DNA from: Fusobacteriaceae bacterium
GTDB lineage: Bacteria > Fusobacteriota > Fusobacteriia > Fusobacteriales > Fusobacteriaceae
DNA length: 64,000 nucleotides
Assembly: GCA_031272775.1 (NCBI GenBank)
Contig: JAISTB010000027.1
Location: 1-64,000, forward strand
Direction of reading: 5' to 3'
Shown: piece by piece, positions 29,562 to 46,499 of the stretch
Layout of the letters: the number at the start of each line of letters is the position of its first letter
Position numbering within the stretch: the first letter of the stretch is position 1
Notes under the pieces: model-generated
What the model saw: only the letters and a program-made list of their open reading frames with translations
Told to the model about the DNA's origin: nothing
Databases searched by the model: none
Translations under genes and position numbers: made by a program

Positions 29562-29586
29562 AACGTGAGGAGATTGATATCATATA

Positions 29587-29755
29587 GCGCCGGATCTCCC
29601 GGTTGACCAAACAGCCGGACGAGATGACGAGGACTGGAATGATCGAAGCTTTCGGCGGGTATTCCAGAGGTGGTTACAACCGTTACCGACAAAACGGGGG
29701 AGCGATCCCCCGGACAAAGCAGTAACCGTAACAAATCTCCCGACACGGGAAAAAA
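29587..29755 (+). ncRNA. glmS ribozyme/riboswitch
   Basis: The 5' UTR of glmS carries the conserved ribozyme blocks in order: ATA|GCGCC with the expected cleavage point between 29586 and 29587, then GACGAGG (29626-29632), ATCGAAGCTTTCGGCGG (about 29641-29657), and the hairpin GGGGGAGCGATCCCCC followed by GGACAAAG. The class cleaves its own RNA when bound to glucosamine-6-phosphate, which triggers decay of the glmS message and so limits amino-sugar synthesis. The 3' boundary is approximate. Confidence 0.93.
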
Positions 29756-32387: not shown

Positions 32388-32984
32388 CTAGGCCTGTGCG
32401 AGATCGGGAATCGGGTCCGTCTCGTGCTCCTTTTCCCATCTGGCGCGTTGGGCGAGGATCAGGGCGATGATTTCATTGTAATCTTCTTTTGGCAGAAGAG
32501 TCCCAAAACCAATATCTTCATCGTCGTATACAATGTGTATTGCTCTGAGATTATCTGAATTATCAAAATAATCTAGCCGCCAACTAAACAAGACAAAGGG
32601 ATTTATATCTTGCCTACGAAAATACCTTGGGAACAATTTCGATTCAAGACAGACAATTTTGTCCCGTTCATATTCTTTATAATAAAAATGCATCTTTTCA
32701 TTATTGGGAATACTAATGGTTTCATATCGCAGGAAAAAAGGAAACGGATATCGTGTTATAGTTATTTTTTCGCCTTTTATGACCATTCTTTCGAATGCAT
32801 TTTCGGAAAATCTGTCGCAAAGATACAATGTTATAAATATTATTACCGTTATAATGCTATGAAAAAATACAAAAATGACAAACCACAAAATAAGCATCAT
32901 TGAGAGAGGATAATATATATTCCAATTGTACACATTAAGTGTTATGCTATCTTCATTTTTAATTATTCGGATGTTTTTTTCCAT
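32388..32984 (-). CDS. membrane protein of unknown function, 2-TM/PH-like paralogue 1
   Basis: A 198-residue protein, not recognised as a named family. It begins MEKNIRIIKNEDSITLN, has two hydrophobic segments (about residues 26-60), and then a beta-rich stretch (KGEKITITRYPFPFFLRYETISI) that could be a bacterial PH-like domain. The C-terminus contains FGTLLPKEDYNEIIALILAQRARW, shared with the two paralogues nearby. The coding region is A+T-rich except for this tail. The ribosome site is weak. It lies in a cluster of three relatives, all on the minus strand. Confidence 0.7.
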   Translation of the reverse strand: MEKNIRIIKNEDSITLNVYNWNIYYPLSMMLILWFVIFVFFHSIITVIIFITLYLCDRFSENAFERMVIKGEKITITRYPFPFFLRYETISIPNNEKMHFYYKEYERDKIVCLESKLFPRYFRRQDINPFVLFSWRLDYFDNSDNLRAIHIVYDDEDIGFGTLLPKEDYNEIIALILAQRARWEKEHETDPIPDLAQA

Positions 32985-33161
32985 GTCGTCATCTTCTTAT
33001 TTTCCAGATTGAACAGGGGTTTTAAAATTTAATGAGCTGAGATTGCAAATCCCCCAGCGTATGATTCAGACAATACATAATAAGCTGTTTTTTCTTTTGT
33101 GTTAAAGATCAAAGCCGCGTCTATTGTTTTTGTCATGTTTATGCCGACTTCTATATTCTGC

Positions 33162-34394
33162 TTATTGTGAAGTCGAGTCAACTGTGTGGGCTTCCGGACC
33201 TTCCGGTTCGGGCGCAATCACGTCTTCCGGATGCTCTTTGTCCCATTTGGCGCGTTGGGCCAGGATCAAGGCAAGGATTTCGTCGTAGTCTTCTTTGACC
33301 ATTAAGACACCAAAGGCATACTCTTTGCCGTCAACATTGAAATGCATTCCTTTAATTTGACTTGGTTGAAAGATGCAACGAGGCCATACCCTCTTTTCAA
33401 GGCGAGAAAAAATACTTGGAAATAGCCAGTCCAAAAAACGAAACTCATATTCTCGGTCTGAATTTTTCCATTGATAAACATTATTAAACCATAGTTTAAG
33501 AGATTGGTTATTGTTCAGAACGGTTTTTCGGAATTGCTTCTCAAAAATTGGATCTTGCAAGCTCAAAATTATTTTGTTATCAGTCAAGATCAGTTTTTCA
33601 CACGCAAGATATGATAATCTTGATATTACGGATAAAATAAAGAGGCCGGTTAACACGAATAGGATAAAGATCTTTCCGATAGTGGTATTTGAAATTTTTG
33701 GGAAAAGCCGTAAACCAAAGAACGCCACAAACAAGCATGCTATCGAGATAAATGGCATTGAACCGTTTTCATCATTGTTATACGTAACAACGGTTTCATC
33801 TCCGATGGTGCAAATATCGCAATTTTCCCCCGCAATATAGCGAAGGTTTTTCTCTTTAAGTAGTTGTTTTATCAGCGATACTGCTTTTTCTGCTGTTTTA
33901 AAGTCAAGAAAACATCCCCAATGGATTATTTCCGGCTTTGGGCTGATATTAAAACCGTCGAAAACTCCGTAATCTAAGGTTTCAATTTTGAGTTTTCTCA
34001 ATCTTGTATAGTTATACCTTGTGTGTTTTTTCAAACAGCTGGCTGTGCTTGGATCTCGGACGTATATTTTTTTAATATCTTGTAAAGAGAAATGCCGTTC
34101 ATATTGTATCTTCTCGCGACGTTTGTATTGCACTTTGACTTTTGTTCCATCGATTTCCATGGTTTCGTTTTGAAAAAGATGTCTGCTGATAGAGTAGAAA
34201 TACAAGAGAATCGCTATCACAACTGAGTAGGCAAAAGAGTATTGTTTTATATGAAAAATGATGATGAGACTTATGGAAACTATTCCCAGCAACACGCCAC
34301 AAATAAGATAATGGGGATAGTATTTTTCCATATTATTCACGAGGATCAGCTTATTATTTTCGGTTTTGATTTCAAATGTATTTAATCTGACCAC
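33162..34394 (-). CDS. membrane protein of unknown function, duplicated 2-TM/PH-like paralogue 2
   Basis: A 410-residue protein starting at GTG behind GGAGG. It appears to hold two successive units of the paralogous family. Unit 1 (to about 190) has two hydrophobic segments and a beta-rich stretch beginning METIDGT-like (MEIDGTKVKVQYKRREKI) and ends in a helix KAVSLIKQLLKEK. Unit 2 has two more hydrophobic segments (about 220-270) and ends in the common tail DYDEILALILAQRAKW, then an acidic Pro/Glu-rich end. The function is unknown. The tail is nearly identical in DNA sequence to that of the next paralogue although the bodies differ. Confidence 0.7.
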   Translation of the reverse strand: MVRLNTFEIKTENNKLILVNNMEKYYPHYLICGVLLGIVSISLIIIFHIKQYSFAYSVVIAILLYFYSISRHLFQNETMEIDGTKVKVQYKRREKIQYERHFSLQDIKKIYVRDPSTASCLKKHTRYNYTRLRKLKIETLDYGVFDGFNISPKPEIIHWGCFLDFKTAEKAVSLIKQLLKEKNLRYIAGENCDICTIGDETVVTYNNDENGSMPFISIACLFVAFFGLRLFPKISNTTIGKIFILFVLTGLFILSVISRLSYLACEKLILTDNKIILSLQDPIFEKQFRKTVLNNNQSLKLWFNNVYQWKNSDREYEFRFLDWLFPSIFSRLEKRVWPRCIFQPSQIKGMHFNVDGKEYAFGVLMVKEDYDEILALILAQRAKWDKEHPEDVIAPEPEGPEAHTVDSTSQ

Positions 34395-34464
34395 GGAACC
34401 TCCGATAACAGTTCTTTGCTACTCATGAAGCCTCTTTTGGCTCCTTCAATAATTTCTTTTTTGG

Positions 34465-34830
34465 TTATTCTTCCTCGATTAAACCTTGCGCAGCATAGCT
34501 GGCAGTCTTTGAATCGAAAAATCCTTTGATCTTTTCGGGAAGTCGTTGCACGGATTTCAAGTGTGAATGCACTTTATGCTCTAGTTTTTCCTCGGAATTT
34601 GGACTTGATCACTTGCCAATTCCTCGCTTCAAATCACTGTTGAGGAGTTCGTCTGGATTGTATTCTGGAGCATACGGCGGCAAGTAAAATACTTCGATCT
34701 CTGCCTTGAGCTTTTCGAGCCACTTTGGGACCTTTGTAGAATGGTGGACACGCAAATTGTCCAGAATCAAGAACACTTTTTTCTTACTATCGTGAACCAA
34801 GCGACGCATAAAATCAATCTCATTGCCGAC
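34465..34830 (-). pseudogene. IS630-family transposase C-terminal remnant
   Basis: Minus-strand codons from 34830 give VGNEIDFMRRLVHDSKKK, then FLILDNLRVHHS and YLPPYAPEYNPDELLNSDLK, the DDE-superfamily catalytic region of IS630-type transposases. An in-frame TGA follows near 34609, after which the frame continues as HLKSVQRLPEKIKGFFDSK to a TAA at 34465, the expected C-terminal tail. The N-terminal half is absent and a TAA precedes the fragment. No terminal inverted repeats were recognised. It is a dead element between two paralogous genes. Confidence 0.8.
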
Positions 34831-34844
34831 TTAGATGTTTTTGC

Positions 34845-35537
34845 CTATTGTGAAGGCGAGTCAACAGCATGGGTTTCAGCCTCTTCCGGTTCGGGCGCAA
34901 TCGCGTCTTCCGGGTGCTCTTTCTCCCATTTGGCGCGTTGGGCGAGGATCAAGGCAAGGATTTCGTCGTAGTCAGGCTTGGTGAGCATGGCGCCGAAAGA
35001 ATATATTTTTCCATTAAATTTGAGGTGCATTCCACGTACATCACTTGGGACGAAAAGAAAACGTGGATTTATTCCGTAAAGTGTGCCTGGGATGAATTTT
35101 CCAAATATTTTTGGAAAAAATCTGTGAAGAATGCTTATTGTGTAAAGTTTATCAATTACTTTATAGCGTAGCTCTTCAAATGGTTCGCCGTTGTATACTG
35201 TTTGTAAATATTTGTTATTTGGGATGGCGATCGAATATAACCTTAACAAAAATGGAGCAAAGTAGTATTGTATTTCAATTCTGTTTTCAGATATTATCAT
35301 TTTTTCAAAGGCATTGTAAGACAATTGTTCTATTATCTTTACGATTATTCCTATTTTTATAAGAAAAATTATATCTTCCTTAAAATAAATGTAAATTGGA
35401 TCGGAGCACAGTATACTCAATATTTCAAAAACAACGAAGATCAAACCAAAAATCAAAATCAATTCAAAACCGTTAATATTGAAAATTTTCAATTCAACTT
35501 CGTCTTCTTGAGCAATAACTCTTATGTTCTTTTCCAT
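34845..35537 (-). CDS. membrane protein of unknown function, 2-TM/PH-like paralogue 3
   Basis: A 230-residue protein starting at the ATG at 35537 behind a purine-rich GGGGAGGAGG. The N-terminus MEKNIRVIAQEDEVELK parallels paralogue 1. Two hydrophobic segments occupy about residues 25-72, a beta-rich region follows, and the tail contains PDYDEILALILAQRAKW and EHPEDAIAPEPEEAE. No catalytic motif was seen. The 3' end, including the bases after the stop, resembles that of paralogue 2, so duplication included flanking DNA. The IS630 remnant lies immediately downstream. Confidence 0.7.
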   Translation of the reverse strand: MEKNIRVIAQEDEVELKIFNINGFELILIFGLIFVVFEILSILCSDPIYIYFKEDIIFLIKIGIIVKIIEQLSYNAFEKMIISENRIEIQYYFAPFLLRLYSIAIPNNKYLQTVYNGEPFEELRYKVIDKLYTISILHRFFPKIFGKFIPGTLYGINPRFLFVPSDVRGMHLKFNGKIYSFGAMLTKPDYDEILALILAQRAKWEKEHPEDAIAPEPEEAETHAVDSPSQ

Positions 35538-35647
35538 CCTCCTCCCCCTCCCCTTATTATTGCAATAAATTCCCCAAATGTCAAGTTTTTGCTTGAATCG
35601 CCCGCCTCCGCCTCGACCTATTCCTTGGCATCCCTGCCCGCAAAACC

Positions 35648-36793
35648 TCATTCCCCCAAAGCCTGCGCAAGATCGGCGATCAGATCCGCCTCGTGCTCGA
35701 TTCCCGCCGAGAGACGCAGGGTCGTCTCTAGGATCCCGTTTCGCTCCCTGTCCTCAGGCGGCACATCGGCGTGGGTCTGGGTCGAGGGGTAAGTGATCAG
35801 GGACTCGACGCCCCCGAGGCTTTCGGCAAAATGCAGCAATTTTACGCTTTTGAGAACACGGAGCGCCGTTTCCTTCGTGTCGGTCTGGAACGTCAGCATG
35901 CTCCCGAAGCCCCGGGCCTGCTTCAGATGGACTTCCGCTTCCGTGAAGTCCGGCAATCCCGGATAATAGACCTTTGTCACCCTCGGGTGGCCGCTCAAAA
36001 AGCGCGCGATGGCAAGCGCGTTTTTTTGGCTGGCTTCCATCCGCAAGCCCAGCGTCTTGACGCCGCGCAGAACAAGCCAGCTGTCAAAGGGCGCGAGACA
36101 GGAACCGATGGTTTTGCTCAAAAAGCGCAGGCGTTCGGCGAGTGCGGCGTCTTTCACAACGAGAAAGCCCGAGAGCGTGTCGTTGTGTCCGCCGAGGAAT
36201 TTCGTGCCGCTGTGCAAAACGATATCCGCCCCCAGATCCAGCGGATTCTGGAACCAGGGCGAGAGAAAGGTATTGTCCACCACAAAAAGGAGTTTGCGCT
36301 CCCGGGCGACATCCGCCGTCTTTTGGATATCGATGATGTTCATCATGGGGTTGGAGGGCGTTTCGATAAAAATAGCGGCGGTTTCCTGCCGGACGAGTCC
36401 CGCCAATTCTCCCGGCGCGCCGTTCCAGTACGTCACGGTCAACCCGTTTTTTTCGCTGATATGCTGAAAATAGCGAATCATGCCGCCGTAGAGATCGCAG
36501 GAACTGATGATGTGATCCCCGGGTTTCAGCAATTCCAGCATGACGGCAACCGCCGCCATGCCGCTGGAAAACGCCAGGGCGTCGGTCCCGTTTTCCAATG
36601 ACGCCACAACCCGCTCCAGTTGCTCACGGGTTGGGTTTTGCTGGCGGCTGTAGTCGTAGCCCGTGCTTTCCCCGACGCCCGGGTGGGCAAAGGTCGCCGT
36701 CTGGTAGATCGGGTAGCTGATGGCGCCGGTATTGTCGTATTTCAAGGTTTCATGGCGGTTATTGACGCACTTCGTCGCGAGATGGTCCGACAC
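35648..36793 (-). CDS. metI: MetI-type cystathionine gamma-synthase / O-acetylhomoserine thiolyase
   Basis: A 381-residue PLP enzyme of Cys/Met metabolism. The Schiff-base lysine is Lys198 in LHSGTKFLGGHND; the YSRQQNPT cofactor loop and AESLGGVESLITYPSTQTHAD block are typical of the MetI/MetB/MetC group. MetI-type enzymes join an activated homoserine with cysteine, sulfide or methanethiol; lyase activity is also possible. The only usable start is GTG at 36793, because TAA occurs a few codons upstream in frame. That GTG overlaps Cys codons of a small upstream ORF. The leader also holds a Met-rich peptide and a terminator. Divergent from the nif-like operon, it would be the methionine branch of the same sulfur system. 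Confidence 0.88.
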   Translation of the reverse strand: MSDHLATKCVNNRHETLKYDNTGAISYPIYQTATFAHPGVGESTGYDYSRQQNPTREQLERVVASLENGTDALAFSSGMAAVAVMLELLKPGDHIISSCDLYGGMIRYFQHISEKNGLTVTYWNGAPGELAGLVRQETAAIFIETPSNPMMNIIDIQKTADVARERKLLFVVDNTFLSPWFQNPLDLGADIVLHSGTKFLGGHNDTLSGFLVVKDAALAERLRFLSKTIGSCLAPFDSWLVLRGVKTLGLRMEASQKNALAIARFLSGHPRVTKVYYPGLPDFTEAEVHLKQARGFGSMLTFQTDTKETALRVLKSVKLLHFAESLGGVESLITYPSTQTHADVPPEDRERNGILETTLRLSAGIEHEADLIADLAQALGE

Positions 36794-36851
36794 AACAGCA
36801 CCCCCCGCGTTCGTTTTTCGATTTCTTTACCATTTTTTCTTTCATTTTCAT
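36759..36851 (-). CDS. Cys-containing upstream ORF overlapping the metI start
   Basis: The ATG at 36851 follows AAAGGAGGAAAC, the best ribosome site in this mRNA. It encodes 30 residues, MKMKEKMVKKSKNERGGCCC then VGPSRDEVRQ. Codons 18-20 are TGC TGT TGT. The metI start GTG (36793-36791) lies across codons 20 and 21 in another frame. The uORF ends 32 bases inside metI. A ribosome slowed at the Cys codons would sit on the metI start, so cysteine supply could set metI translation. The reading frame and ribosome site are seen; the control role is inferred. Confidence 0.6.
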   Translation of the reverse strand: MKMKEKMVKKSKNERGGCCCVGPSRDEVRQ

Positions 36852-36875
36852 GTTTCCTCCTTTTAACCATTTCAT

Positions 36876-36908
36876 AAAAAAAATACTCCGGAAAACTCCA
36901 AAGTATTT
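36876..36908 (-). terminator. attenuator terminator between Met leader and metI
   Basis: In the RNA sense AAATACTTTGG (36908-36898) pairs with CCGGAGTATTT (36891-36881), 11 pairs with two G-U, loop AGTTTT, followed by a run of eight T. It lies 63 bases after the Met-leader stop and 25 bases before the Cys uORF, so it would stop transcription before metI. A palindrome TTTACGCGTAAA (36906-36917) and a small hairpin (36913-36926) at its 5' side could form competing structures. Confidence 0.85.
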
Positions 36909-36971
36909 ACGCGTAAACCTCTTTACATTTTGCTGATTTGGCCCGGGTTCAGGCCGTCGCGGCGTACTTTT

Positions 36972-37070
36972 TCATTTTCTCCGATGGTTCGCAATCAAAT
37001 AAGGGCGCATGGTCGCCATGCGCATCGCCATCATTGTCATTGTGAACATCAGGGAAAAGAGTATTGTCAT
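36972..37070 (-). CDS. methionine-rich leader peptide of metI
   Basis: A 32-codon ORF begins with ATG at 37070, eight bases after GGAG, about 26 bases after the predicted transcription start. It encodes MTILFSLMFTMTMMAMRMAT then MRPYLIANHRRK: eight Met codons, seven of them within codons 8-21. The codon run itself can fold into a perfect 8-pair hairpin, GCGCATGG-CGA-CCATGCGC (about 36996-37014). With a terminator just downstream and a methionine gene next, it has the layout of a ribosome-mediated attenuator that senses methionyl-tRNA. It is too short and skewed to be an ordinary protein. Confidence 0.78.
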   Translation of the reverse strand: MTILFSLMFTMTMMAMRMATMRPYLIANHRRK

Positions 37071-37102
37071 GCTGTACGCTCCGTTAAAGATGATTAACAG
37101 AA

Positions 37103-37131
37103 ATCATACAGGAATTCCGAAAATTAGTCAA
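37103..37131 (-). promoter_or_regulatory. sigma-70-type promoter of the metI leader transcript
   Basis: On the minus strand TTGACT (37131-37126), 17 bases, TATGAT (37108-37103). Predicted start near 37096. The region to 37269 between this and the opposite promoter is A+T-rich and holds no gene. Confidence 0.78.
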
Positions 37132-37269
37132 ATATATTTCATATATTTTATAAATATACCTGATATATGATTGTGATCTCATGGAATGTCCAGATTCTGA
37201 AAAACAACCTAAAATGCCTGGGTTTAAAGGCAGCAACACGATCTTGACCAAAAAAATAAAAAATATTTC

Positions 37270-37298
37270 TTGACAAAACGAAAAAGGAATGTTACAAT
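37270..37298 (+). promoter_or_regulatory. sigma-70-type promoter of the nif-like operon
   Basis: TTGACA (37270-37275), 17 bases, TACAAT (37293-37298). Predicted start near 37305, giving a leader of about 335 bases before the NifH-like gene. Confidence 0.82.
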
Positions 37299-37368
37299 GC
37301 CTGAAAATCCTGCTCGAAAGACGCAAGAATTTTCGCACAGTAGCGCGAAAAAGTCCGGAGGAAGAACT

Positions 37369-37515
37369 ATGATACGCAATTTTTCGGGAAAAGCCCCCTT
37401 TACTATGGCCATGTGTTGTCGCATGTGTTGTTGCAAAAACAACACTTTTTGTCATAGGGCAGACGGCGTTCCGAAAAATATGACGATGCGACCACGGCGG
37501 ATTCCTTCCGGTTAA
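37369..37515 (+). CDS. cysteine-rich leader peptide of the nif-like operon
   Basis: A 48-codon ORF starts with ATG at 37369 behind CCGGAGGAAGAACT. Its key part is codons 13-22, [10 protein letters not shown], with a sixth Cys at codon 28; the C-terminal part is basic (MRPRRIPSG). The TAA at 37513-37515 lies in the loop of a 9-pair hairpin, and an intrinsic terminator follows 40 bases later. Clustered Cys codons, a stop codon inside a hairpin, a competing pairing (ACGCT 37534-37538 with AGCGT 37556-37560) and a terminator are the parts of a ribosome-mediated attenuator. It should keep the operon off when cysteinyl-tRNA is plentiful. Confidence 0.8.
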
Positions 37516-37530
37516 TCAAAACGGAAGGAA
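37502..37530 (+). promoter_or_regulatory. hairpin enclosing the Cys-leader stop codon
   Basis: TTCCTTCCG (37502-37510) pairs perfectly with CGGAAGGAA (37522-37530). The 11-base loop contains the leader's TAA. There is no U-tract, so it is probably a regulatory (pause or switching) hairpin. The left arm is also partly complementary to the leader's own CCGGAGGAA ribosome site. Confidence 0.7.
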
Positions 37531-37554
37531 ATCACGCTGTTTCACAGGAATCAT

Positions 37555-37607
37555 AAGCGTTTGGAAGTCGAGGCGATTGAGGCCGAATCCAGGCGCTTTT
37601 TATTTTT
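37555..37607 (+). terminator. attenuator terminator before the NifH-like gene
   Basis: AAGCGTTTGGA (37555-37565) pairs with TCCAGGCGCTT (37588-37598), 11 pairs including two G-U, followed by TTTTTATTTTT. The 22-base loop is long. It ends 33 bases before the NifH-like start codon, after the Cys leader, so termination here would silence all eight genes. Confidence 0.8.
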
Positions 37608-37639
37608 CACCAATCCCATTCACACAAGGAGAATCGCAA

Positions 37640-38518
37640 ATGCCCAAAAAAATAAAGCAGATCGCCATTTACGGAAAAGGCGGCATCGGAAAATCCACGA
37701 CCACCAGCAATATTTCGGCGGCCCTCTCCCTCCTGGGGTACAAGGTCATGCAGTTCGGCTGTGACCCCAAGGCGGACAGCACCAACACGCTCAGAAAGGG
37801 GACCTACATTCCCACGGTCCTCGATACGCTCCGGGAAAAAGGAAAGGTCGATGTCCATGACGTCATTTACGAGGGCTTCAACGGCATCTACTGCGTCGAA
37901 GCGGGAGGACCGGCGCCGGGAGTCGGTTGCGCGGGGCGCGGCATCATCACGGCCGTGGAATTGTTCAAGCAACAGCGCGTCTTTGACGAACTGGACCTCG
38001 ACTTCGTCATTTACGACGTTTTGGGGGACGTGGTCTGCGGCGGCTTCGCGGTCCCCATTCGGGAAGGCATCGCGCAGCATGTGTTTACGGTCTCCAGCGG
38101 GGATTTTATGTCCATATACGCAAGCAACAATCTGTTCAAAGGCATCAAAAAATACAGCAACAGCGGCGGGGCGCTTCTCGGGGGAATTATCGCCAATTCC
38201 ATCAATGAAAGCTATTCACGGGAGATCATCGACGACTTTGCCGCGCGGACAAAGACGCAAATCGTCCAGTATGTGCCGCGCTCCATTACCGTGACCCAGG
38301 CGGAGCTCAAGGGCAGGACCGTCATCGAATCGGCCCCCGCCAGTGAGCAAGCCGGGATCTATCGGACCCTCGCGAAAAAAATCGCGGACCACGAGGAGAG
38401 CAAAACCCCTTCGCCCCTGGGCGTCGACGAACTCCGGCAGTGGGCCGCCTCCTGGAGCGACAAGTTGCTGCAAATACAGAATATTGTGGAAAACGAGGAG
38501 GGGGTGGCGGCCATATGA
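37640..38518 (+). CDS. NifH-like nitrogenase-type iron protein (group IV-like / MarH-like)
   Basis: A 292-residue ATP-dependent reductase homologue from the ATG at 37640, behind AAGGAG. The P-loop is [14 protein letters not shown] (11-24). Cys97 (CAGRGI) and Cys133 ([11 protein letters not shown]) are the ligands of the [4Fe-4S] cluster shared by the dimer; Arg100 is the residue ADP-ribosylated in some nitrogenases. Electrons would go to the NifDK-like proteins encoded downstream. The residues from 250 on differ from true NifH. With no nifE, nifN or nifV in view, dinitrogen fixation is unlikely; cysteine synthase, a sulfonate-type importer and a Cys leader point to sulfur. It overlaps the NifB gene by four bases. 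Confidence 0.9.
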
Positions 38519-39702
38519 GACTGGCTTTCGCTTCAAACGACGGGATTTTCGTATCACAACATTTCGGCCACGCGCAGCGGTTCGCCATCGTAGATATTGA
38601 TGAAACCGCCTATACCTGGCGATTTGTGGAAAAAAGGGAAAACATCAGTCCCTGCGTCATGGGGGAGCATGATCCGGAAAAATTGGAGCGGAGCGTTGCG
38701 CTTCTTTCGGACTGCAGGGTCTTGTTCGCGGCGAAAGTCGGCAATTACGCCAAATCGCGCCTGCAGCTGGAGGGAATCCAAGTGCTGGAAAAGCCCGGCG
38801 TCATCGAAGATCTGATCGCGGGATATCTGAACTATCTGAAAAGGCCCGTATGGGGAGGAATCAAGGGCGAAAAGCGAAGGGACGCGATCGAAGATCACCC
38901 CTGCTTTTCGGAAAAGGCCCACAACAAAAACGGACGGCTTCATTTGCCGGTCAGTCCCGCCTGCAACATCCAGTGCCGCTTTTGCACGAGAAAACAAAAC
39001 GTCACGGAACAAAGACCCGGGGTGGCGGCGGGAATCCTCGATCCTTCGGAAGCGGCCGATACGGTGAAAAGAGCTCTGGAACTCTGTCCTTCCATTACGG
39101 TCGTGGGAATCGCGGGGCCGGGCGATACGCTGGCGACGCCCCACGCCGTCGAGGCTTTCCGGCAGGTGCACGCGGCATATCCGGGCCTCATCAAGTGCCT
39201 GAGTACGAACGGGCTCGAGTTGCCGGGAAAGGCGAAAGAATTGTGGGATGTGGGCGTGAGGACCGTGACGGTTACCGTCAATGCCGTGGATCCTGAAATT
39301 TTAACGAAAATCGTCTCGTGGATCAAGGACGGCCGCGATCTGATCGGAGCCCAGCTGCAGGGGATCCGGGAATGCGCCGCTATGGGGATTGTCGTCAAGG
39401 TCAATACCGTCTTGATCCCCGGTGTGAACGATCATCATGTGGCGGATATCGCTCTGGTTGTAAAATCGGCGGGCGCAAGCAGACACAATATTCTCCCCTT
39501 GATTCCGCAGCATGAATTTGCCGGTTGGCCTGCGCCGACCTGTCAAGAGATCGAACTGGCGCGCCGGGAAGCGGGAGAATACCTTGAGCAGTTCCGACAC
39601 TGCAAACATTGCCGAGCCGACGCCTGCGGCATCCCGGGCGTCAGCGACCTTTCAAATGAGCTCTACCGGGGAAGGGAACTCGAAACCTTTTCCCACGGAT
39701 GA
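38515..39702 (+). CDS. NifX-NifB fusion, radical SAM cofactor-biosynthesis protein
   Basis: From the ATG at 38515 (ATGA overlap with the preceding stop) this is 395 residues. Residues 1-110 form a NifX/NafY-type domain ([24 protein letters not shown]). Residues about 125-395 are Nif[30 protein letters not shown] with the radical SAM cysteines 150, 154 and 157, GPGDTLATP, and the late [13 protein letters not shown]. NifB uses SAM to build the carbide-centred [8Fe-9S-C] precursor. Its presence in this operon says the NifDK-like enzyme carries a NifB-derived cluster. In many nitrogen fixers the NifX-like part is C-terminal or separate; here it is N-terminal. Confidence 0.92.
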
Positions 39703-39737: not shown

Positions 39738-40667
39738 ATGAATGTTGCACAGAGTTTAACGGATTTGATCGGCAATACGCCGCTGCTCAAACCCAACAAT
39801 TACCTCAAAGAGAAACAGCTTGACGCCGAAATCTTCTTGAAATTGGAGTATTTCAATCCGCTGGGCAGCGTCAAGGACCGCATCGCCTACGCCATGATCA
39901 GAGACGCCGAGGAAAGCGGAAAATTACAAAAAGGCGCCGTGATCATCGAGCCCACCAGCGGAAACACAGGGATCGGCATCGCCTTTGTGGCGGCGGCCCG
40001 CGGATACAAGGTCATCCTGACCATGCCCGACACCATGAGCGTCGAGCGCAGATCCCTCGTACAGGCCCTGGGCGCGGAAGTTGTCCTGACGCCGGGCGCA
40101 AAAGGCATGAGCGGGGCCGTGCGCCAGGCCGAGGCGTTGAACGCCCAAATCAAAGGGAGCGTTATTTTGCAGCAGTTTGAAAACCCTGCCAACCCGGCCG
40201 TCCATCATAAGACAACGGCGGAGGAAATCTGGCGGGACACCGAGGGGAAGGTCGATCTCTTTGTGGCGGGCGTCGGAACCGGCGGAACCGTGGCCGGCGT
40301 CGGGAAAAACCTCAAAGAAAAAAATCCCGACGTGAAAATCATCGCCGTGGAGCCCTTTGAATCGCCGGTCCTTTCTGGAGGACAGCCGGGTCCCCACAAG
40401 ATACAGGGCATCGGGGCCGGTTTTGTGCCGAAGGTCTATGACAAAGACATTGTTGACGAAGTCTATCAGGTCCGCTCCGAGGAAGCCATCGAAACCGCCA
40501 GGGATCTCGGCCGGATCGAGGGACTCCTTGTGGGGATTTCGTCGGGGGCGGCGACTTTTGCGGCGCTGACTCTGGCCAAACGGGAAGAAAACAGAGGAAA
40601 ACATATTGTGGCGATACTGCCGGACACAGGGGAACGTTACCTGTCCACGGTCCTGTATCAGCTGTAG
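39738..40667 (+). CDS. cysK: cysteine synthase (O-acetylserine sulfhydrylase)
   Basis: A 309-residue PLP enzyme that makes cysteine from O-acetylserine and sulfide. Lys46 in [10 protein letters not shown] binds [15 protein letters not shown] is the substrate loop, [10 protein letters not shown] the phosphate cup, and [11 protein letters not shown] the C-terminal site. GGAG precedes the ATG. It sits between the cofactor gene and the catalytic subunits of the nitrogenase-like enzyme, so it most likely uses sulfur released by that enzyme. Some family members accept homoserine esters or other thiols, so a direct use of methanethiol is possible but not shown. Confidence 0.94.
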
Positions 40668-40679
40668 GGGGAGGAGATC

Positions 40680-41999
40680 ATGTCAGATTTTGTCGAACGG
40701 CCGCGCAGCAGTTGTCCTTTGGGCGGGGCTCTTGCCACCCTCGCCAATCTGCCCGACATCGTGCCGATCATCCACGCGGCGGGAGGTTGCGGCGGTAACT
40801 TGACGGCGTCCATCGCTTTCGGCGCGGGCTACCTCGGGGACGGCTACTGTACGGGCAGAACATCGCCCACGACGGCCGTCAGTGAAACGGAAGTGGTTTT
40901 CGGCGGGAACGAGCGCCTGGAGGAACAGATCCGCACGACGCTTGAACTCATGGAGGGAAAGCTCTATGTGGTCGCCACGGGATGTATGACCGAAATGATC
41001 GGTGATGATACCGATGGCGTCGTCAGGGAATTTCAGGCGGAGGGAAAGCCAGTCGTCGCCATCAGTACGCCCAGTTTTCGCGGAGACAGCTACCACGGCT
41101 ATGAAATCGCCCTCGACGGGATTTTCAACAAATTTCTCCCGAAGGCGAAAAAGAAAAATCCAAAATTAGTCAACATTTTCGGCCTTGTGCCGGGCTACGA
41201 TCCTTTTTTCCGGGGGGACCTCGAGGAAATTGAGCGGCTTTTGACCGCGGTCGGGCTTTCGGTCAACACGTTTTTTACGCCCGGACAGACCTTTGAAAAT
41301 ATCGCCTCGGCCCCTTCGGCCGCACTCAACATCGTCTTTTCCAGAGTCTGGGGAAGGGATTTCGCCGGGAAATTTGAAGAAAAGCACGATACGCCTCATC
41401 TCATCGCGGATCTGCCCGTAGGTCCCGAAGCGACCGACGCGTTTCTGCTGCAAATTGCGGATAAATTAGGTCTTGATTTGCAAAAAGTCCAAAAGATCAT
41501 CGAAAAAGAAAACTCGACATTTTACGGATATTTTGAACGGGGCGCGGATATTTTCTGCGACGGCGATCTGAAGCATTACGCGGCTACGGTCACCAACGCC
41601 ACCTATGCCCTTCCTCTGACCCGCTTTCTGACCCGGGAGCTCGGCTGGGTCGTGACGGACAGCTTTGTCACCGACAAGCTTACGGATACGCAAAAAAGCG
41701 TATTGAACGACGGGGAATTCCCGCTGCAGTTTCTGCAGGGCGCCCAGGAAATCGCCCGGGCCCTGAACAACAATCATCCCAACGGCAGAGGGCAACGCTA
41801 TTTTGACGACCTGTCCCCGCTGTATATCCTCGGAAGTACGTTGGAAAAGCGAACAGCCGCGGCCCGTGGCGCCAGATCGTTATCATTGAGTTTTCCGGTA
41901 TATGATCGGTTTATCACGGACAGAGGCTACGCGGGATATCGGGGCGGATTACATCTTTTTGAGGATTTGGTCGGACAGATCATGTCCGTCAAGTCATAA
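40680..41999 (+). CDS. NifK-like beta subunit of a nitrogenase-like reductase
   Basis: A 439-residue member of the NifD/K/E/N family. Cys12 (SSCPLGGALA), Cys37 (AAGGCGGN) and Cys102 (ATGCMTEMIGDD) match the three beta-subunit ligands of a P-cluster. SETEVVFGGNERL equals the conserved TEDAAVFGG-type block before the third Cys, marking it as the K side. It is shorter than true NifK, which has an N-terminal extension. It would pair with the NifD-like protein next door in an alpha2beta2 enzyme. GGGGAGGAG precedes the start. Confidence 0.88.
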   Translation: MSDFVERPRSSCPLGGALATLANLPDIVPIIHAAGGCGGNLTASIAFGAGYLGDGYCTGRTSPTTAVSETEVVFGGNERLEEQIRTTLELMEGKLYVVATGCMTEMIGDDTDGVVREFQAEGKPVVAISTPSFRGDSYHGYEIALDGIFNKFLPKAKKKNPKLVNIFGLVPGYDPFFRGDLEEIERLLTAVGLSVNTFFTPGQTFENIASAPSAALNIVFSRVWGRDFAGKFEEKHDTPHLIADLPVGPEATDAFLLQIADKLGLDLQKVQKIIEKENSTFYGYFERGADIFCDGDLKHYAATVTNATYALPLTRFLTRELGWVVTDSFVTDKLTDTQKSVLNDGEFPLQFLQGAQEIARALNNNHPNGRGQRYFDDLSPLYILGSTLEKRTAAARGARSLSLSFPVYDRFITDRGYAGYRGGLHLFEDLVGQIMSVKS

Positions 42000-42011: not shown

Positions 42012-43529
42012 ATGGGAAATTATGACGCGAAAGTCCCCCCGATCCGGGAAGCGCGCCTGAAAGCGGGAGATACCTTCGGCGGCGCCCTTTGCGAGCTGAT
42101 GGACTGCTGTCGGGAAGGCTGCCTGATCCAGAAAAACAGAAGTTTCTGGCAAGCGGGCTCCTGTCAGATGAACGGCGCCATGATGATGGCGGGAACCTTG
42201 GAAAAAACCGTGATCGTGAATCACTCACCGGGCGGATGCAGCGCCCAGCTGCATTTTCTGTCTTTCCAGGCCGCAAAAGGCATGGGCAGACGGGGGAAAC
42301 CGAACCTTTCCGTACCATGGCTGTCCACAAACCTGACGGAATCGGACGTCATCGGCGGCGGAGAGAAAAAACTCCTGGAGACCATCGAATACGCCGACAA
42401 GACCTTTCGGCCCGAGCTGATTTTCGTCGTTCTCACCTGCGCCCCCAGCATCATCGGGGACGATCTGGACGAGGTGGTCCAGACGGCCCGGGGGAGGGTC
42501 AACGCGGAAATCGTGAGCCTGCATTGTCCGGGCTTCAAAAGTCGAATTTTCGCCTCGGCCTACGACACTTTCTATCACGGTTTGCTGAAGACGCTGTCTT
42601 TTTCGCCGAAACCCTGGCTTGATTACCGTCCCATTGATGAAAACGCCCCCGACGCCGAGCTGCGCTACGCGGCTTGGGCCTGGCAGAAAGCGCATACGGT
42701 CAATGTCTGGAACGCCACAAGCATCGGATCCGACGACGAAGCCGAAGTCGCAAGGCTCTTGGGGGCTTTGGGGCTCACGACGCGCATCTACGCCGAATAC
42801 GCCTCCAGGGACGAGTTGCGGAAAGTCTCGGAAGCGGCCCTCAATATCAGCATGTGCGACGTCCACGACGATTATATTCTGAAATATCTCGAAGAGGAAT
42901 TCGGTACGCCCTACGTCATCGCGGGGATGCCCATCGGATTCAGGCACACCCGGGAATGGCTTCTTGCCATAGCGGCGCATTTTCATCTGGAACGGCAGGC
43001 GGAAGCCCTGGCCGATTATGAGGAAAAAATCGCGAAGGACGCCATCGCTCCCTATGCCGAAAAAATCAAGGGAAAGCGCGTTTTGATCTACGGCGGCGCG
43101 GTCCGGGCGGGCGTGGAGGCCACGGTCATGGCCGAATTGGGCCTCGAAATCCTCGGTATCCGCACCTACCATTACGACGAGGGCGCCGACGCCGTTTTCA
43201 AGGACGTGGAGCGGCTTTCGCCGGAAGCCACGATTTCCGTGAGCACCCAGCTCTTTGAAATGACGCACCAGATCAAAACGTTGAAACCCGATCTCGTCCT
43301 CTCTCATAACGGCACTCAGGGCTATATGGCCAAGCTGGGCGTCGTATCGGTGCAACTTTTCGATATGGACAAAGTCTTCTTCGGTTATACGGGGATCTTT
43401 CAAATCCTGCGCCGCATCGTCTTTGAGTTTAAAAATACGTCCTACCGCGACAGGTTGTCGAAGCGCATTCGGCTGCCATACAAACAGGCTTATTTTGAAG
43501 GGAACACCTTTCAATATATCAAAAACTAA
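42012..43529 (+). CDS. NifD-like alpha subunit of a nitrogenase-like reductase
   Basis: A 505-residue catalytic-subunit homologue. Cys51 (AGSCQMNGAM), Cys76 (SPGGCSAQLHF) and Cys143 (LTCAPSIIGDD) match the alpha P-cluster ligands. Cys282 (NISMCDVHDDY) is in the place of the nitrogenase cysteine that holds the FeMo-cofactor. The nitrogenase histidine ligand region (YHGFDGF) is replaced by FFGYTGI, so the second cofactor anchor is missing or different. A Cys-rich stretch DCCREGC at 31-37 is extra. The pattern fits a NifB-cluster enzyme that is not a nitrogenase, such as methylthio-alkane reductase, which releases methanethiol from methylthio compounds. Substrate is inferred from neighbours. Confidence 0.88.
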   Translation: MGNYDAKVPPIREARLKAGDTFGGALCELMDCCREGCLIQKNRSFWQAGSCQMNGAMMMAGTLEKTVIVNHSPGGCSAQLHFLSFQAAKGMGRRGKPNLSVPWLSTNLTESDVIGGGEKKLLETIEYADKTFRPELIFVVLTCAPSIIGDDLDEVVQTARGRVNAEIVSLHCPGFKSRIFASAYDTFYHGLLKTLSFSPKPWLDYRPIDENAPDAELRYAAWAWQKAHTVNVWNATSIGSDDEAEVARLLGALGLTTRIYAEYASRDELRKVSEAALNISMCDVHDDYILKYLEEEFGTPYVIAGMPIGFRHTREWLLAIAAHFHLERQAEALADYEEKIAKDAIAPYAEKIKGKRVLIYGGAVRAGVEATVMAELGLEILGIRTYHYDEGADAVFKDVERLSPEATISVSTQLFEMTHQIKTLKPDLVLSHNGTQGYMAKLGVVSVQLFDMDKVFFGYTGIFQILRRIVFEFKNTSYRDRLSKRIRLPYKQAYFEGNTFQYIKN

Positions 43530-43552: not shown

Positions 43553-44572
43553 ATGCATGTATCAAGAAAAGGCATTTTCAAGTGGATTCTGACGTTCGTT
43601 TTGCTGTTTTCGCTTACGGTGACTTCCGTCATGGGAAATGCCGCGAAAAAAAATTGGGGCAAAATCGATATCGTCGGAAAGAGTGGATCCCTGTGCGCGT
43701 CCCCGACCTACATCGCCTATGAAAACGGCTATTTTGCCGAGGAAGGTTTTGACGTGACGCTGATCACGGCCGACGGAGAAACCCGCAAAGTGGGTTTGAA
43801 CAACGGCACATTGCCCCTCACCAACACGGATTTCCAGTTTTTGCCGCCTATTGAACAGGGCTTGAAATTCAGCGTTGTGGACGGCCTTCACTACGGTTGT
43901 ATCTCCATCGTGGTCCGGGGCGATTCGCCGATCAAAAGCGTGGCCGATCTAAAAGGAAAGAAAATCGGCGTCGACGAACTCGGCAGTTCTCCCTTCCAGG
44001 TGACCGCTTCTTGGCTGGCGTTGAACGATATCAACGTCAAGGGGGACGTGGAAATCGTGCCCTTCGGCTCCGACGGCAATCTGCAGATCCAGGCGCTGAA
44101 AAACGGCGAAATCGACGCGGCGGCCCTCTGGGATCCCTTCGGAACCGTGGCCGAACAGCGGGAAGGATTCAGAAAACTCTTCGATCTCGGAACCCATCCG
44201 GATTTTGCCGGAAAATACTGCTGCTTCCTTTTTGCCTCGGATAAAGTGCTCGAGGAGGAACCCGAAAAGATCGCGTCTCTTCTCCGGGCCTATCACAAGG
44301 CTCAGGATTGGATCGCGAAAAATCCCGAAGCGGCGGCGAAAATTGTCATCGACAAAAAATATGTTTCCACCGGCAACTATGAGTTGGCCACGACGCTGCT
44401 CAAGAGTTACCAGTACCCGACCTATGAGGATAGAAAGGCCGGAAAGACGACCCTTGAGCAGGACCTTGACTATTTTGTAACGATTCTCTCGAAGATCGGC
44501 TTCCTGAAGACGCAGGATCCCGGCGGATTCGCCAAGAAAATTTACCGGAAAGTGGACACGAGGGACTATTAA
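43553..44572 (+). CDS. SsuA/TauA/NMT1-type ABC substrate-binding protein
   Basis: A 339-residue exported binding protein with a Sec signal peptide (about 1-29, ending VMGNA). The mature part begins KNWGKIDIVGKSGSLCASPTY and has the NMT1/SsuA layout: EEGFDVTLITADG, DSPIKSVADLKGKKIGVDE and the late AALWDPFG motif. Relatives bind alkanesulfonates, taurine, nitrate or pyrimidine precursors. There is no lipobox, so it would be periplasmic, in keeping with an outer membrane. AAGGAGG precedes the start, and it follows the NifD-like gene by 23 bases. Probable role: supply of the organosulfur substrate. Confidence 0.88.
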   Translation: MHVSRKGIFKWILTFVLLFSLTVTSVMGNAAKKNWGKIDIVGKSGSLCASPTYIAYENGYFAEEGFDVTLITADGETRKVGLNNGTLPLTNTDFQFLPPIEQGLKFSVVDGLHYGCISIVVRGDSPIKSVADLKGKKIGVDELGSSPFQVTASWLALNDINVKGDVEIVPFGSDGNLQIQALKNGEIDAAALWDPFGTVAEQREGFRKLFDLGTHPDFAGKYCCFLFASDKVLEEEPEKIASLLRAYHKAQDWIAKNPEAAAKIVIDKKYVSTGNYELATTLLKSYQYPTYEDRKAGKTTLEQDLDYFVTILSKIGFLKTQDPGGFAKKIYRKVDTRDY

Positions 44573-44617
44573 ATTTGCGCGCGGAGACTTGTTTTATCTT
44601 ATTCGCAGAAATACCCT

Positions 44618-44650
44618 GTGCGTGGCGGCCCCTCCGGGGCCGCCACGCAC
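44618..44650 (+). repeat. 15-pair perfect hairpin between binding protein and permease genes
   Basis: GTGCGTGGCGGCCCC (44618-44632), loop TCC, GGGGCCGCCACGCAC (44636-44650). It is followed by AAAAAA, not T, so it is not a plus-strand intrinsic terminator. It may protect the 3' end of the binding-protein mRNA and so favour its excess over the membrane subunits. Confidence 0.7.
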
Positions 44651-44662
44651 AAAAAAGAACTT

Positions 44663-44695
44663 GGTCGGTCGCGGGCCGCAGGCCCGCCACCGACC
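44663..44695 (+). repeat. second long hairpin, same intergenic gap
   Basis: GGTCGGT-C-GCGGGCC (44663-44677), loop GCA, GGCCCGC-C-ACCGACC (44681-44695): 14 pairs with one C-C mismatch. It has no U-tract. Only 12 bases separate it from the first hairpin; the stems are different sequences. Confidence 0.7.
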
Positions 44696-44758
44696 CGGAA
44701 ACGGGACGGAATTTACTGCCTCCCTGTCGGAAATTAAAGACTTGAAAGAGGTTATGGC

Positions 44759-45730
44759 ATGAAAAAAAACAAAAATAGTTATCGTTTACGAATAGGCTTG
44801 ACCATTTTGGGTTTCGCGCTGGCGGAAATCACAAGTTTTGTCCTGCCGACGATACAGGAGGACGTGGACGACCGGGTCTACCGCGCCGTACTCGCGGGGC
44901 TCATCATATTTTTCGTCGCGAGCGGAATCCGTGCGGGATTTACACCCATGAGGCGGGCGCGATATGAAAAACGCGCCCCCTTTCGCTTTGTCCTCGGCCT
45001 GATCCTCGCGGCCTGGGATATTTTGAGCGCGAAAACAGGCATTTTTCCGCTCCCGTTTTTTCCGAGTCCGTCCAAAATCCTCTCGGTCTTTCTGACGGAC
45101 AGGGATTTTATGATCCAGAACTTGTTTTTCTCATTGAAACTCTATTTTTCGGGATTTTTGAGCGGCGTCCTCATGGGGGTGGGAACGGGAATTCTGATCG
45201 GCTGGTTCCCGAAAGTAAACTATTGGGTCATGCCTGTCATGCGGATTACCGGGGTTATCCCCGCCGTAGCCTGGATCCCGGTGGCCCTGACCATCTTCCG
45301 CTCCGGCTTTGTGACAGGCTCCTTTCTCATTGCCATGTGCGCGTGGTTTCCGATCGGATTCCAAACCGCAAGCGGCATGCAACGGACGGAAAAAATCTAT
45401 TTTGAGGCGGCAAAAACCATCGGCGGGGGGAGTCTGTACCAATTGTTCAACGTCGCGCTTCCCAACGCCATGCCCGCCGTGTTTACGGGAATCAGCACCG
45501 CCAACGGCCTCGCCTTCACGACGCTCGTCATCAGCGAAATGCTGGGGGCAAAAGGGGGGCTCGGGTATTATATCAACTGGGCCAAGGCCTGGGCGGAATA
45601 TTATAAAGTCTACGCGGCGATTATCGTAATGGCCGTCATGTTCTCCCTGATCTTAAAAGGGATAAATTTGATCAAAGATCGTGTACTCATTTGGCAAAAG
45701 GGATTGGTGAACGCAATCGATGAATCTTAA
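44759..45730 (+). CDS. SsuC/TauC-type ABC transporter permease
   Basis: A 323-residue inner-membrane permease. Residues about 11-60 add two hydrophobic segments before the usual six-span core, a longer N-terminus than standard SsuC. The coupling region reads FEAAKTIGGGSLYQLFNVALPNAMPAV, the EAA motif of this family. AAAGAGG precedes the start. It overlaps the ATPase gene by 11 bases. Together with the binding protein and ATPase it forms one importer of the nitrate/sulfonate/taurine class. Confidence 0.9.
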   Translation: MKKNKNSYRLRIGLTILGFALAEITSFVLPTIQEDVDDRVYRAVLAGLIIFFVASGIRAGFTPMRRARYEKRAPFRFVLGLILAAWDILSAKTGIFPLPFFPSPSKILSVFLTDRDFMIQNLFFSLKLYFSGFLSGVLMGVGTGILIGWFPKVNYWVMPVMRITGVIPAVAWIPVALTIFRSGFVTGSFLIAMCAWFPIGFQTASGMQRTEKIYFEAAKTIGGGSLYQLFNVALPNAMPAVFTGISTANGLAFTTLVISEMLGAKGGLGYYINWAKAWAEYYKVYAAIIVMAVMFSLILKGINLIKDRVLIWQKGLVNAIDES

Positions 45731-46499
45731 CGCAATTGACATTCGTAACGTGTCCCAGCGCTTTACCGGCGTCGCCGGAGAAGAAGTGAACGTCCTGCGG
45801 GACATCAATTTACAGATCCGGAAAGGGGAATTTCTCTCGATCATCGGCCCCAGCGGCTGCGGAAAAACGACGTTGCTGCGGCTGATCGCGGGCCTGGCTT
45901 CGCCCCTCGGCGGAACGCTCACGGAAGGAGACGCGCCCATTACGGGACCTTCGCCCGATCGCGGCTATGTCTTTCAGCAAAACGGGCTTTTTCCCTGGCT
46001 GACTGTGGAGAAAAACATCGCGGCGGGGCTCAAAGCGCGCAAAGTATACGCCAAAGAAAAGCGCCACGTTAAAAAATATATAGAATTAGTAGGTCTTTCA
46101 GGCTTTGAGGGAGCATACCCGCATCAGATCAGCGGCGGCATGGCGCAACGGGCGGCCATTGCCAGATCGCTCATCAACGAACCGACGGTTCTTCTGTTGG
46201 ACGAACCTCTGGGGGCCCTCGACAGCTTCACGCGAATGAATCTGCAGGAAGAATTGCTGCGCCTTTGGCGCGACAAAGGAAATACCATGATCATGGTCAC
46301 CCACGACATCGACGAAGCCGTTTATCTGAGCAATCGCATCGTGGTTATGACCCCGCGGCCGGGGCAAATCGCCAAAATCATCGACGTCCCCATGGGATAT
46401 CCGAGAAACCGGGCGTCTGCGGATTTTACGCGGCTGCGGACGCAAATCCTGACTTTTTTGAACTATGCCCACGAGACACAGCCGGAGTACGCGCTGTGA
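45720..46499 (+). CDS. SsuB/TauB-type ABC transporter ATPase
   Basis: A 259-residue ATPase. Walker A GPSGCGKTTLL, Q-loop VFQQNGLFPW, signature ISGGMAQRAAIARSL, Walker B LLLDEPLGALD and switch VTHDIDEAV are all intact. The C-terminal MTPRPGQIAKIIDV segment is typical of nitrate/sulfonate/taurine ATPases. It is the last gene of the operon and converges on tnaA with only 12 bases between; a small GAGGG/CCCTC hairpin lies at 46498-46511. Confidence 0.92.
   Translation: MNLNAIDIRNVSQRFTGVAGEEVNVLRDINLQIRKGEFLSIIGPSGCGKTTLLRLIAGLASPLGGTLTEGDAPITGPSPDRGYVFQQNGLFPWLTVEKNIAAGLKARKVYAKEKRHVKKYIELVGLSGFEGAYPHQISGGMAQRAAIARSLINEPTVLLLDEPLGALDSFTRMNLQEELLRLWRDKGNTMIMVTHDIDEAVYLSNRIVVMTPRPGQIAKIIDVPMGYPRNRASADFTRLRTQILTFLNYAHETQPEYAL

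Follow-up and report, generated by a model that had tools for sequence, protein, structure and literature searches.

Ribosome-mediated attenuators of the trp, his and ilv type combine a short, SD-led leader peptide rich in the regulated amino acid with competing antiterminator and terminator structures and a U-run. Upstream of cysS in the Rhodobacterales, a Cys-codon uORF (uORFC-8-2) carries tandem Cys codons in a stem and is followed by an intrinsic terminator (PMC8632094), while Cys leaders are found at actinobacterial cys and cbs genes (PMC1262725). Poly-Cys leaderless short ORFs have furthermore been described in mycobacteria (Canestrari 2020, as cited in PMC9031893). On the enzyme side, the structure 9FMG represents MarDK2H2 of R. 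rubrum (PMC12552129).

The window analysed here is the whole of a 64,000-nucleotide stretch of DNA from a member of the Fusobacteriaceae. Its positions 36794-37639 form the exact gap between the start codon of a metB-like gene and the start codon of nflH, and the genes and promoters on either side are the following:

35648-36793, minus strand: metB-like PLP enzyme of the cystathionine gamma-synthase/gamma-lyase superfamily, with a GTG start
37103-37131, minus strand: promoter of the metB arm, TTGACT-17-TATGAT, 10/12 in the promoter scan
37270-37298, plus strand: promoter of the nfl/mar arm, TTGACA-17-TACAAT, 11/12 in the promoter scan, with TG before the -10
37640-38518, plus strand: nflH, nifH-like reductase component, marH-like (TIGR01287, 410.8 bits, above cutoff)
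38500-39702, plus strand: NifB-like radical SAM protein with a NifX-like domain, start approximate
39738-40667, plus strand: cysK, cysteine synthase (TIGR01139, 451.2 bits, above cutoff)
40680-41999, plus strand: K-type subunit of the nitrogenase-like enzyme (top PDB match 9d9u_C/9fmg, 3.7e-64)
42012-43529, plus strand: D-type subunit of the nitrogenase-like enzyme (top PDB match 9d9u_A/9fmg_A, 1.8e-55)
43553-46499, plus strand: SsuA/SsuC/SsuB-like ABC transporter genes

The best match of the K and D subunits among solved structures is the methylthio-alkane reductase of R. rubrum (9FMG/9d9u), and the plus-strand operon, termed mar-like here, is nitrogenase-like and methylthio-alkane-reductase-related, with the cleavage of methylthio-alkanes as its putative chemistry. 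The metB-like protein has PRK07671, a gamma-lyase/homocysteine desulfhydrase, as its top NCBIfam match (427.6 bits, under the cutoff of 594) and 4l0o, a cystathionine gamma-synthase, as its top PDB match, while its N-terminus aligns without gaps to the orthologue in G051, a genome of the same genus, starting at the GTG. No credible SAM riboswitch, T-box or other Rfam element was found at 36700-37700 in an Rfam covariance-model search; the sole Rfam match in the window at the gathering score is a glmS ribozyme (29575-29737, 76.1 bits) located before glmS. Three adjacent hypothetical proteins, paralogous to one another and alike in a C-terminal EILALILAQRAKWxKEH-type motif, are encoded on the minus strand at 32388-35651. 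AT-rich near-palindromes of the ATATATG..CATATAT type lie near promoters at 37132-37173 of the window and also in L006, L013 and L015, and may be an operator or merely AT-rich DNA.

A total of 33 nitrogenase-like loci (L006-L017, L026 and L082-L101) was compared. Leaving out L026, which is cut off early, cysK is incorporated into the cluster in 29 of 32 loci, suggesting that the product of these clusters feeds cysteine synthesis. Close relatives of the operon occur in MAGs of Treponema, Clostridiales, Oscillospiraceae, Synergistaceae and others, and this variety of taxa makes horizontal spread probable; the same taxa point to a gut anaerobe as the host of the window DNA.

The leader of the nitrogenase-like operon comprises the following elements:

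37369-37515, plus strand: SD-led ORF for a Cys-rich leader peptide, with counterparts in G050, G051, G070 (L015) and G548 (L082)
37425-37445, plus strand: hairpin H1, formed by the Cys codons (GTGTTGTT/AACAACAC), a conserved, separate element
37464-37475, plus strand: predicted antiterminator strand 2 (CGGC-G-TTCCGAA), pairing with 37560-37570
37557-37601, plus strand: intrinsic terminator of the Cys leader, whose 5' arm (37560-37570) doubles as antiterminator strand 3

The window holds 76 ATG ORFs that are 15-60 codons long and preceded by an SD, and this leader ORF is the top-ranking one for Cys. Cys-run leaders precede the nitrogenase-like operon in five genomes (the window, G050, G051, G070 and G548), each with a terminator 3' of the leader, and are absent before the operon relatives L006, L007 and L008. 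The peptides read AVCCCCMCCCENN in G050, AVCCMCCSMCCCKND in G051, SAMCCCINSSCC in G070, a member of Clostridiales Family XIII, and NECCCCSICCC in G548, and outside the Cys runs their sequence varies between genera. Homology of the G548 leader to the window leader is not clear by sequence, as 17/500 shuffles score as high. When the three genomes of the genus were scanned with a narrow poly-Cys pattern, no wider Cys-leader regulon emerged, the extra matches falling outside the Cys frame or within genes. Since cysK was not seen in the G070 operon behind the Cys leader, it is apparently the nitrogenase-like genes that the leader controls.

The effective terminator of the plus arm is not hairpin H1 but the 37557-37601 element, which G050 shares with 100% identity and which is likewise conserved in G051 and G070. 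Hairpin H1 was rejected as the sole plus-arm terminator, its U-run being broken in G070, where the downstream terminator and the antiterminator remain; H1 carries one U-A to C-G double change in that genome. A helix of the form CGGC-N-(T/G)TC(C/T)GAA / TTTGGA(A/T)G(T/C)CG competes with the terminator in the window, G050, G051 and G070. All 11 of its pairs form in each of the four aligned sequences (100% of cells paired), and three changes in it preserve pairing, one of them two-sided and the other two one-sided. When the Cys-codon hairpin is counted in, 98.7% of cells are paired, a share that drops to 36-46% on sliding the partners. The observed covariation score was reached by 31/500 shuffles, a control that is modest because the alignment holds four sequences only, two of them near-identical. 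Pairing with the terminator 5' arm brings an energy gain that 3% of shuffles equal in the window, 0.7% in G050 and 0/300 in G070, while in G051 and G548 it is no stronger than in shuffles, the helix itself being present in G051. The antiterminator, which a sequence-only reading of this DNA had missed, is a predicted structure, mutually exclusive with the terminator and conserved from the window genus to Family XIII.

The position of the leader stop codon offers two ways in which a terminating ribosome could act on this structure. A distance of 12-14 nt separates the antiterminator strand from the downstream stop codon in G051 and G070, so that the strand would be masked by the ribosome. For the window and G050, whose strand is further upstream, the predicted fold places the stop codon in the loop of a stem bridging both strands, so that the ribosome would melt the bridge. 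Judged by this comparison, a classical Cys attenuator of the ribosome-mediated type appears to precede the nitrogenase-like operon on the plus arm.

The metB arm carries a Met-rich leader and, beyond its terminator, a second short ORF:

36972-37070, minus strand: Met-rich leader peptide MTILFSLMFTMTMMAMRMATMRPYLIANHRRK, 8 Met in 32 residues, with an SD
37005-37023, minus strand: hairpin GCGCATGG-CGA-CCATGCGC inside the Met codons, 1:2-type
36900-36970, minus strand: candidate Met antiterminator, AAAGTACGC (36970-36962) with GCGTAAATACTTT (36912-36900), predicted in the fold
36876-36908, minus strand: strong intrinsic terminator of the Met leader, AAATACTTTGGAG-TTTT-CCGGAGTATTT followed by a U-run
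36759-36851, minus strand: overlapping, Cys-containing uORF MKMKEKMVKKSKNERGGCCCVGPSRDEVRQ with a strong SD of its own, 3' of the Met terminator

The Met leader ORF ranks first for Met among the same 76 ORFs. The sequence-only reading had proposed two diverging promoters, each driving an amino-acid-specific leader that ends in its own terminator, and this architecture was recovered in all three respects, with both terminators 100% identical in G050. The minus arm is probably a Met attenuator, judged from its sequence features. It is held less confidently than the Cys arm because the pairing energy of the candidate antiterminator is no better than that of shuffles and because the leader peptide is present in the window genome and G050 only, of 61 family genomes; a further match in these genomes, at E 0.36, was not considered credible. 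Strand 36970-36962 begins directly after the leader stop codon, and a terminating ribosome would therefore cover it.

The uORF at 36759-36851, likewise missed in the earlier reading, places three consecutive Cys codons (CCC) between the metB SD and the metB GTG, where they partly coincide with the SD-to-start spacer, itself constrained. It is kept, with the CCC in the same register, in all three genus genomes. In G050 (...VRRCCCVGP...) the codons before the CCC are changed and one Cys codon has a synonymous change, while the G051 uORF MMKNMSDMKHATKNINAWWRSCCGRCCCEISC (SCCGRCCCE) has two extra Cys codons and differs in everything upstream. For the window and G050, folding predicts a hairpin in which the metB SD is base-paired. 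No such uORF is present at the metB orthologues examined outside the genus, and a Cys-run reading upstream of metB in L032 was dropped, as it is without an in-frame start codon. An Rrf2-like regulator gene, named from its translated sequence, precedes metB in G061 and G369, suggesting a different control in those lineages; the gene adjoins metB at L100:7480-7943 (G369) and lies upstream of metB in L032. Mutually similar small proteins (GSVILIIESSKVV and GSITLVIHDGKLV) are encoded just upstream of the nitrogenase-like clusters at L016:9167-9481 and L100:8255-8413.

Alignment of the window with G050 serves as a natural footprint. The promoters are 93% (metB arm, with TATTAT as the -10 in G050) and 90% identical (nfl/mar arm), and the Cys leader is 98% identical from the Cys hairpin through the terminator. 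In the Met leader 75/75 nt of the 3' part are identical and the codon changes in the 5' part are mostly synonymous. The metB coding start is 99% identical over 141 nt and the nflH coding sequence 88%. The inter-promoter DNA, however, is merely 46% identical, and the upstream part of the Cys leader, comprising the peptide N-terminus and flank, 54%, with a 12-nt in-frame indel and the Cys runs kept. The conservation of the promoters, leader parts and terminators while the spacers decay indicates that these elements are under constraint.

The third genome of the genus, G051, keeps a Cys element both at the nflH arm and at metB, which there share a strand but are separated by about 22 kb. In this genome metB belongs to an operon-like run. 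Upstream of metB the run holds an M20-type peptidase gene, MetN/MetI/MetQ-like transporter genes and a DapA-like gene (named from translated ORFs), and downstream it holds cysK and a second set of nitrogenase-like subunits. A leader peptide in which Cys runs alternate with Met runs (MILLFLGIGICCCMMHSCMMCTCMNMFHIF... / ICCCMMHSCMMCTCMNM; L102:1913-2065), associated with a terminator, heads this run, and its composition is the clearest sign of joint Met and Cys sensing in the genus. Homology of the window Met leader to this dual leader is suggestive only, 3/500 shuffles scoring as high and the terminator part alone being involved. A second, more distant cysK and K/D set lies at L017:3304-7100 of G051; the contig also carries the first set, about 20 kb away.

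The sequence-only reading had further taken the symmetry of the two arms as a sign that the locus evolved as a joint sulfur amino-acid switch and that both arms form one system. Sensing of both amino acids finds support in the uORF of the three genomes and in the mixed leader of G051, while the head-to-head symmetry as an evolved unit does not hold and fails the refutation test which that reading had set, namely separate occurrence of the arms in relatives with other neighbours. An integrated divergent switch, with both arms read together, would account for the layout shared by the window and G050; these are two close sisters among the three genus genomes. A metB orthologue in G369 is also divergent from a cysK-nifB-like-K-D cluster, but an Rrf2-type regulator gene lies between them and no leaders were seen. 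Against such a switch, the arms are split in G051, and in G070 and G548 the Cys leader precedes the operon with no metB adjacent. Furthermore, the neighbours of nflH differ, with an ABC transporter in L007 and ribosomal-protein genes upstream in L082, and the DNA between the promoters is poorly conserved even between the sister genomes. As the arms are split in one genome and the Cys arm stands alone in others, we regard an integrated switch as quite improbable; the unit would be Met and Cys sensing around metB, and not the head-to-head symmetry.

We consider it likely that three ribosome-read elements, namely the two leaders and the metB uORF, gauge charged tRNA-Met and tRNA-Cys, translation of the short Met- and Cys-rich peptides probably allowing the ribosome to sense either amino acid and to turn the genes on or off accordingly. 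This explanation draws on conservation, on the enrichment in Cys and Met and on the exclusive, conserved helices of the plus arm, and from these we infer transcription and ribosome stalling as well as enzyme function. When Cys is short, a ribosome would stall in the CC..CCC run of the plus-arm leader, leaving 37464-37475 free to pair with 37560-37570, and the antiterminator would take up the 5' arm of the terminator, allowing RNA polymerase to enter the nflH operon. With Cys in good supply, the ribosome would reach the stop codon, strand 2 or the bridging stem would be masked or melted, and the terminator would form. On the minus arm, a stall in the Met codons under Met shortage would free the antiterminator just past the leader stop codon, while sufficient Met would lead to termination at 36908-36876. 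In read-through transcripts the second ORF would then be translated, and a ribosome stalled at its Cys-Cys-Cys codons, between the metB SD and start, would cover the metB start site. The sign that we infer and prefer is hence expression of metB under Met shortage with Cys available, and its shut-off under Cys shortage, although the opposite sign is possible. Tentatively, metB would be under two serial ribosome-read inputs, Met-tRNA charging at the level of transcription and then Cys-tRNA charging at translation of its start; in G051, one leader with alternating Cys and Met runs would perform the first step for the operon of Met uptake, metB and the second nitrogenase-like set.

Three other explanations bear on parts of this scheme. 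The Cys attenuator alone may be functional, with the Met-rich ORF and the metB uORF being fortuitous reading frames in the surroundings of an ordinary metB promoter and of a terminator that allows readthrough, as would fit the restriction of the Met leader to two close species, the weak Met antiterminator and the overlap of the uORF Cys codons with the SD spacer. A chance ORF would hardly, however, be the most Met-rich of 76 with its 3' 75 nt fully conserved, nor would the uORF be expected to keep its CCC in G051, with two more Cys codons, despite different surroundings, and a Met and Cys leader with a terminator stands at the corresponding place in that genome; we therefore judge this explanation unlikely. 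The opposite sign at metB, by which stalling at the Cys codons would open an SD-sequestering hairpin and raise metB expression when Cys is short, as if the enzyme made Cys from cystathionine, deserves serious consideration and falls not far short of an even chance. It agrees with the predicted pairing of the metB SD, with the below-cutoff top NCBIfam match to a gamma-lyase/homocysteine desulfhydrase, and with the description of mycobacterial poly-Cys ORFs as Cys-responsive attenuators (PMC9031893). The Cys codons nevertheless lie on both the SD and the start site, which a stalled ribosome would cover, and the Met-rich leader speaks for a Met-making role. Finally, the small Cys-rich ORFs could encode functional metal-binding or redox micropeptides, and dense Cys runs are in principle able to bind metal. 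The poor conservation of the peptide outside the Cys runs between genera, together with the conserved competing RNA helices and the terminator that follows them, renders this highly improbable as an alternative to attenuator leaders.

Should charged-tRNA sensing by the three elements be borne out, a nitrogenase-like sulfur enzyme would be under direct Cys-starvation control, these operons would appear to serve Cys supply in gut anaerobes, and the metB arm would constitute a compact natural two-input ribosome sensor, Met then Cys. To our knowledge, control by leader-peptide attenuation is not known for the nitrogenase-like enzyme family. A search confined to the open-access literature, and therefore of limited weight, found neither attenuation by a Met leader peptide nor any mixed Cys/Met leader described.

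Leader-peptide attenuation is an old principle, of which the application to a nitrogenase-like operon and the combination of Met and Cys are probably a variant. The locus shares the architecture of the trp, his and ilv-type attenuators outlined above, the antiterminator of the minus arm being a weak candidate, but would sense Cys on the plus arm and probably Met on the minus arm, and would control a nitrogenase-like operon. With the Rhodobacterales uORFC-8-2 (PMC8632094) it has in common the tandem Cys codons in a stem and the intrinsic terminator, and differs in lineage and gene, in its longer Cys runs and in having an identified antiterminator strand that varies in a pair-preserving manner. 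The mycobacterial and actinobacterial leaders (PMC9031893, PMC1262725) resemble it in having Cys-codon runs within a short ORF that directly precedes a sulfur gene, whereas the metB uORF is led by an SD of its own and its Cys codons overlie the SD and start of the gene that follows; the mycobacterial leaders that were aligned are without an intrinsic terminator, whereas the plus arm here uses one. The D and K subunits, lastly, match MarDK of the R. rubrum MarHDK operon (PMC12552129) best among solved structures, but the operon described here additionally holds cysK and a Cys leader.
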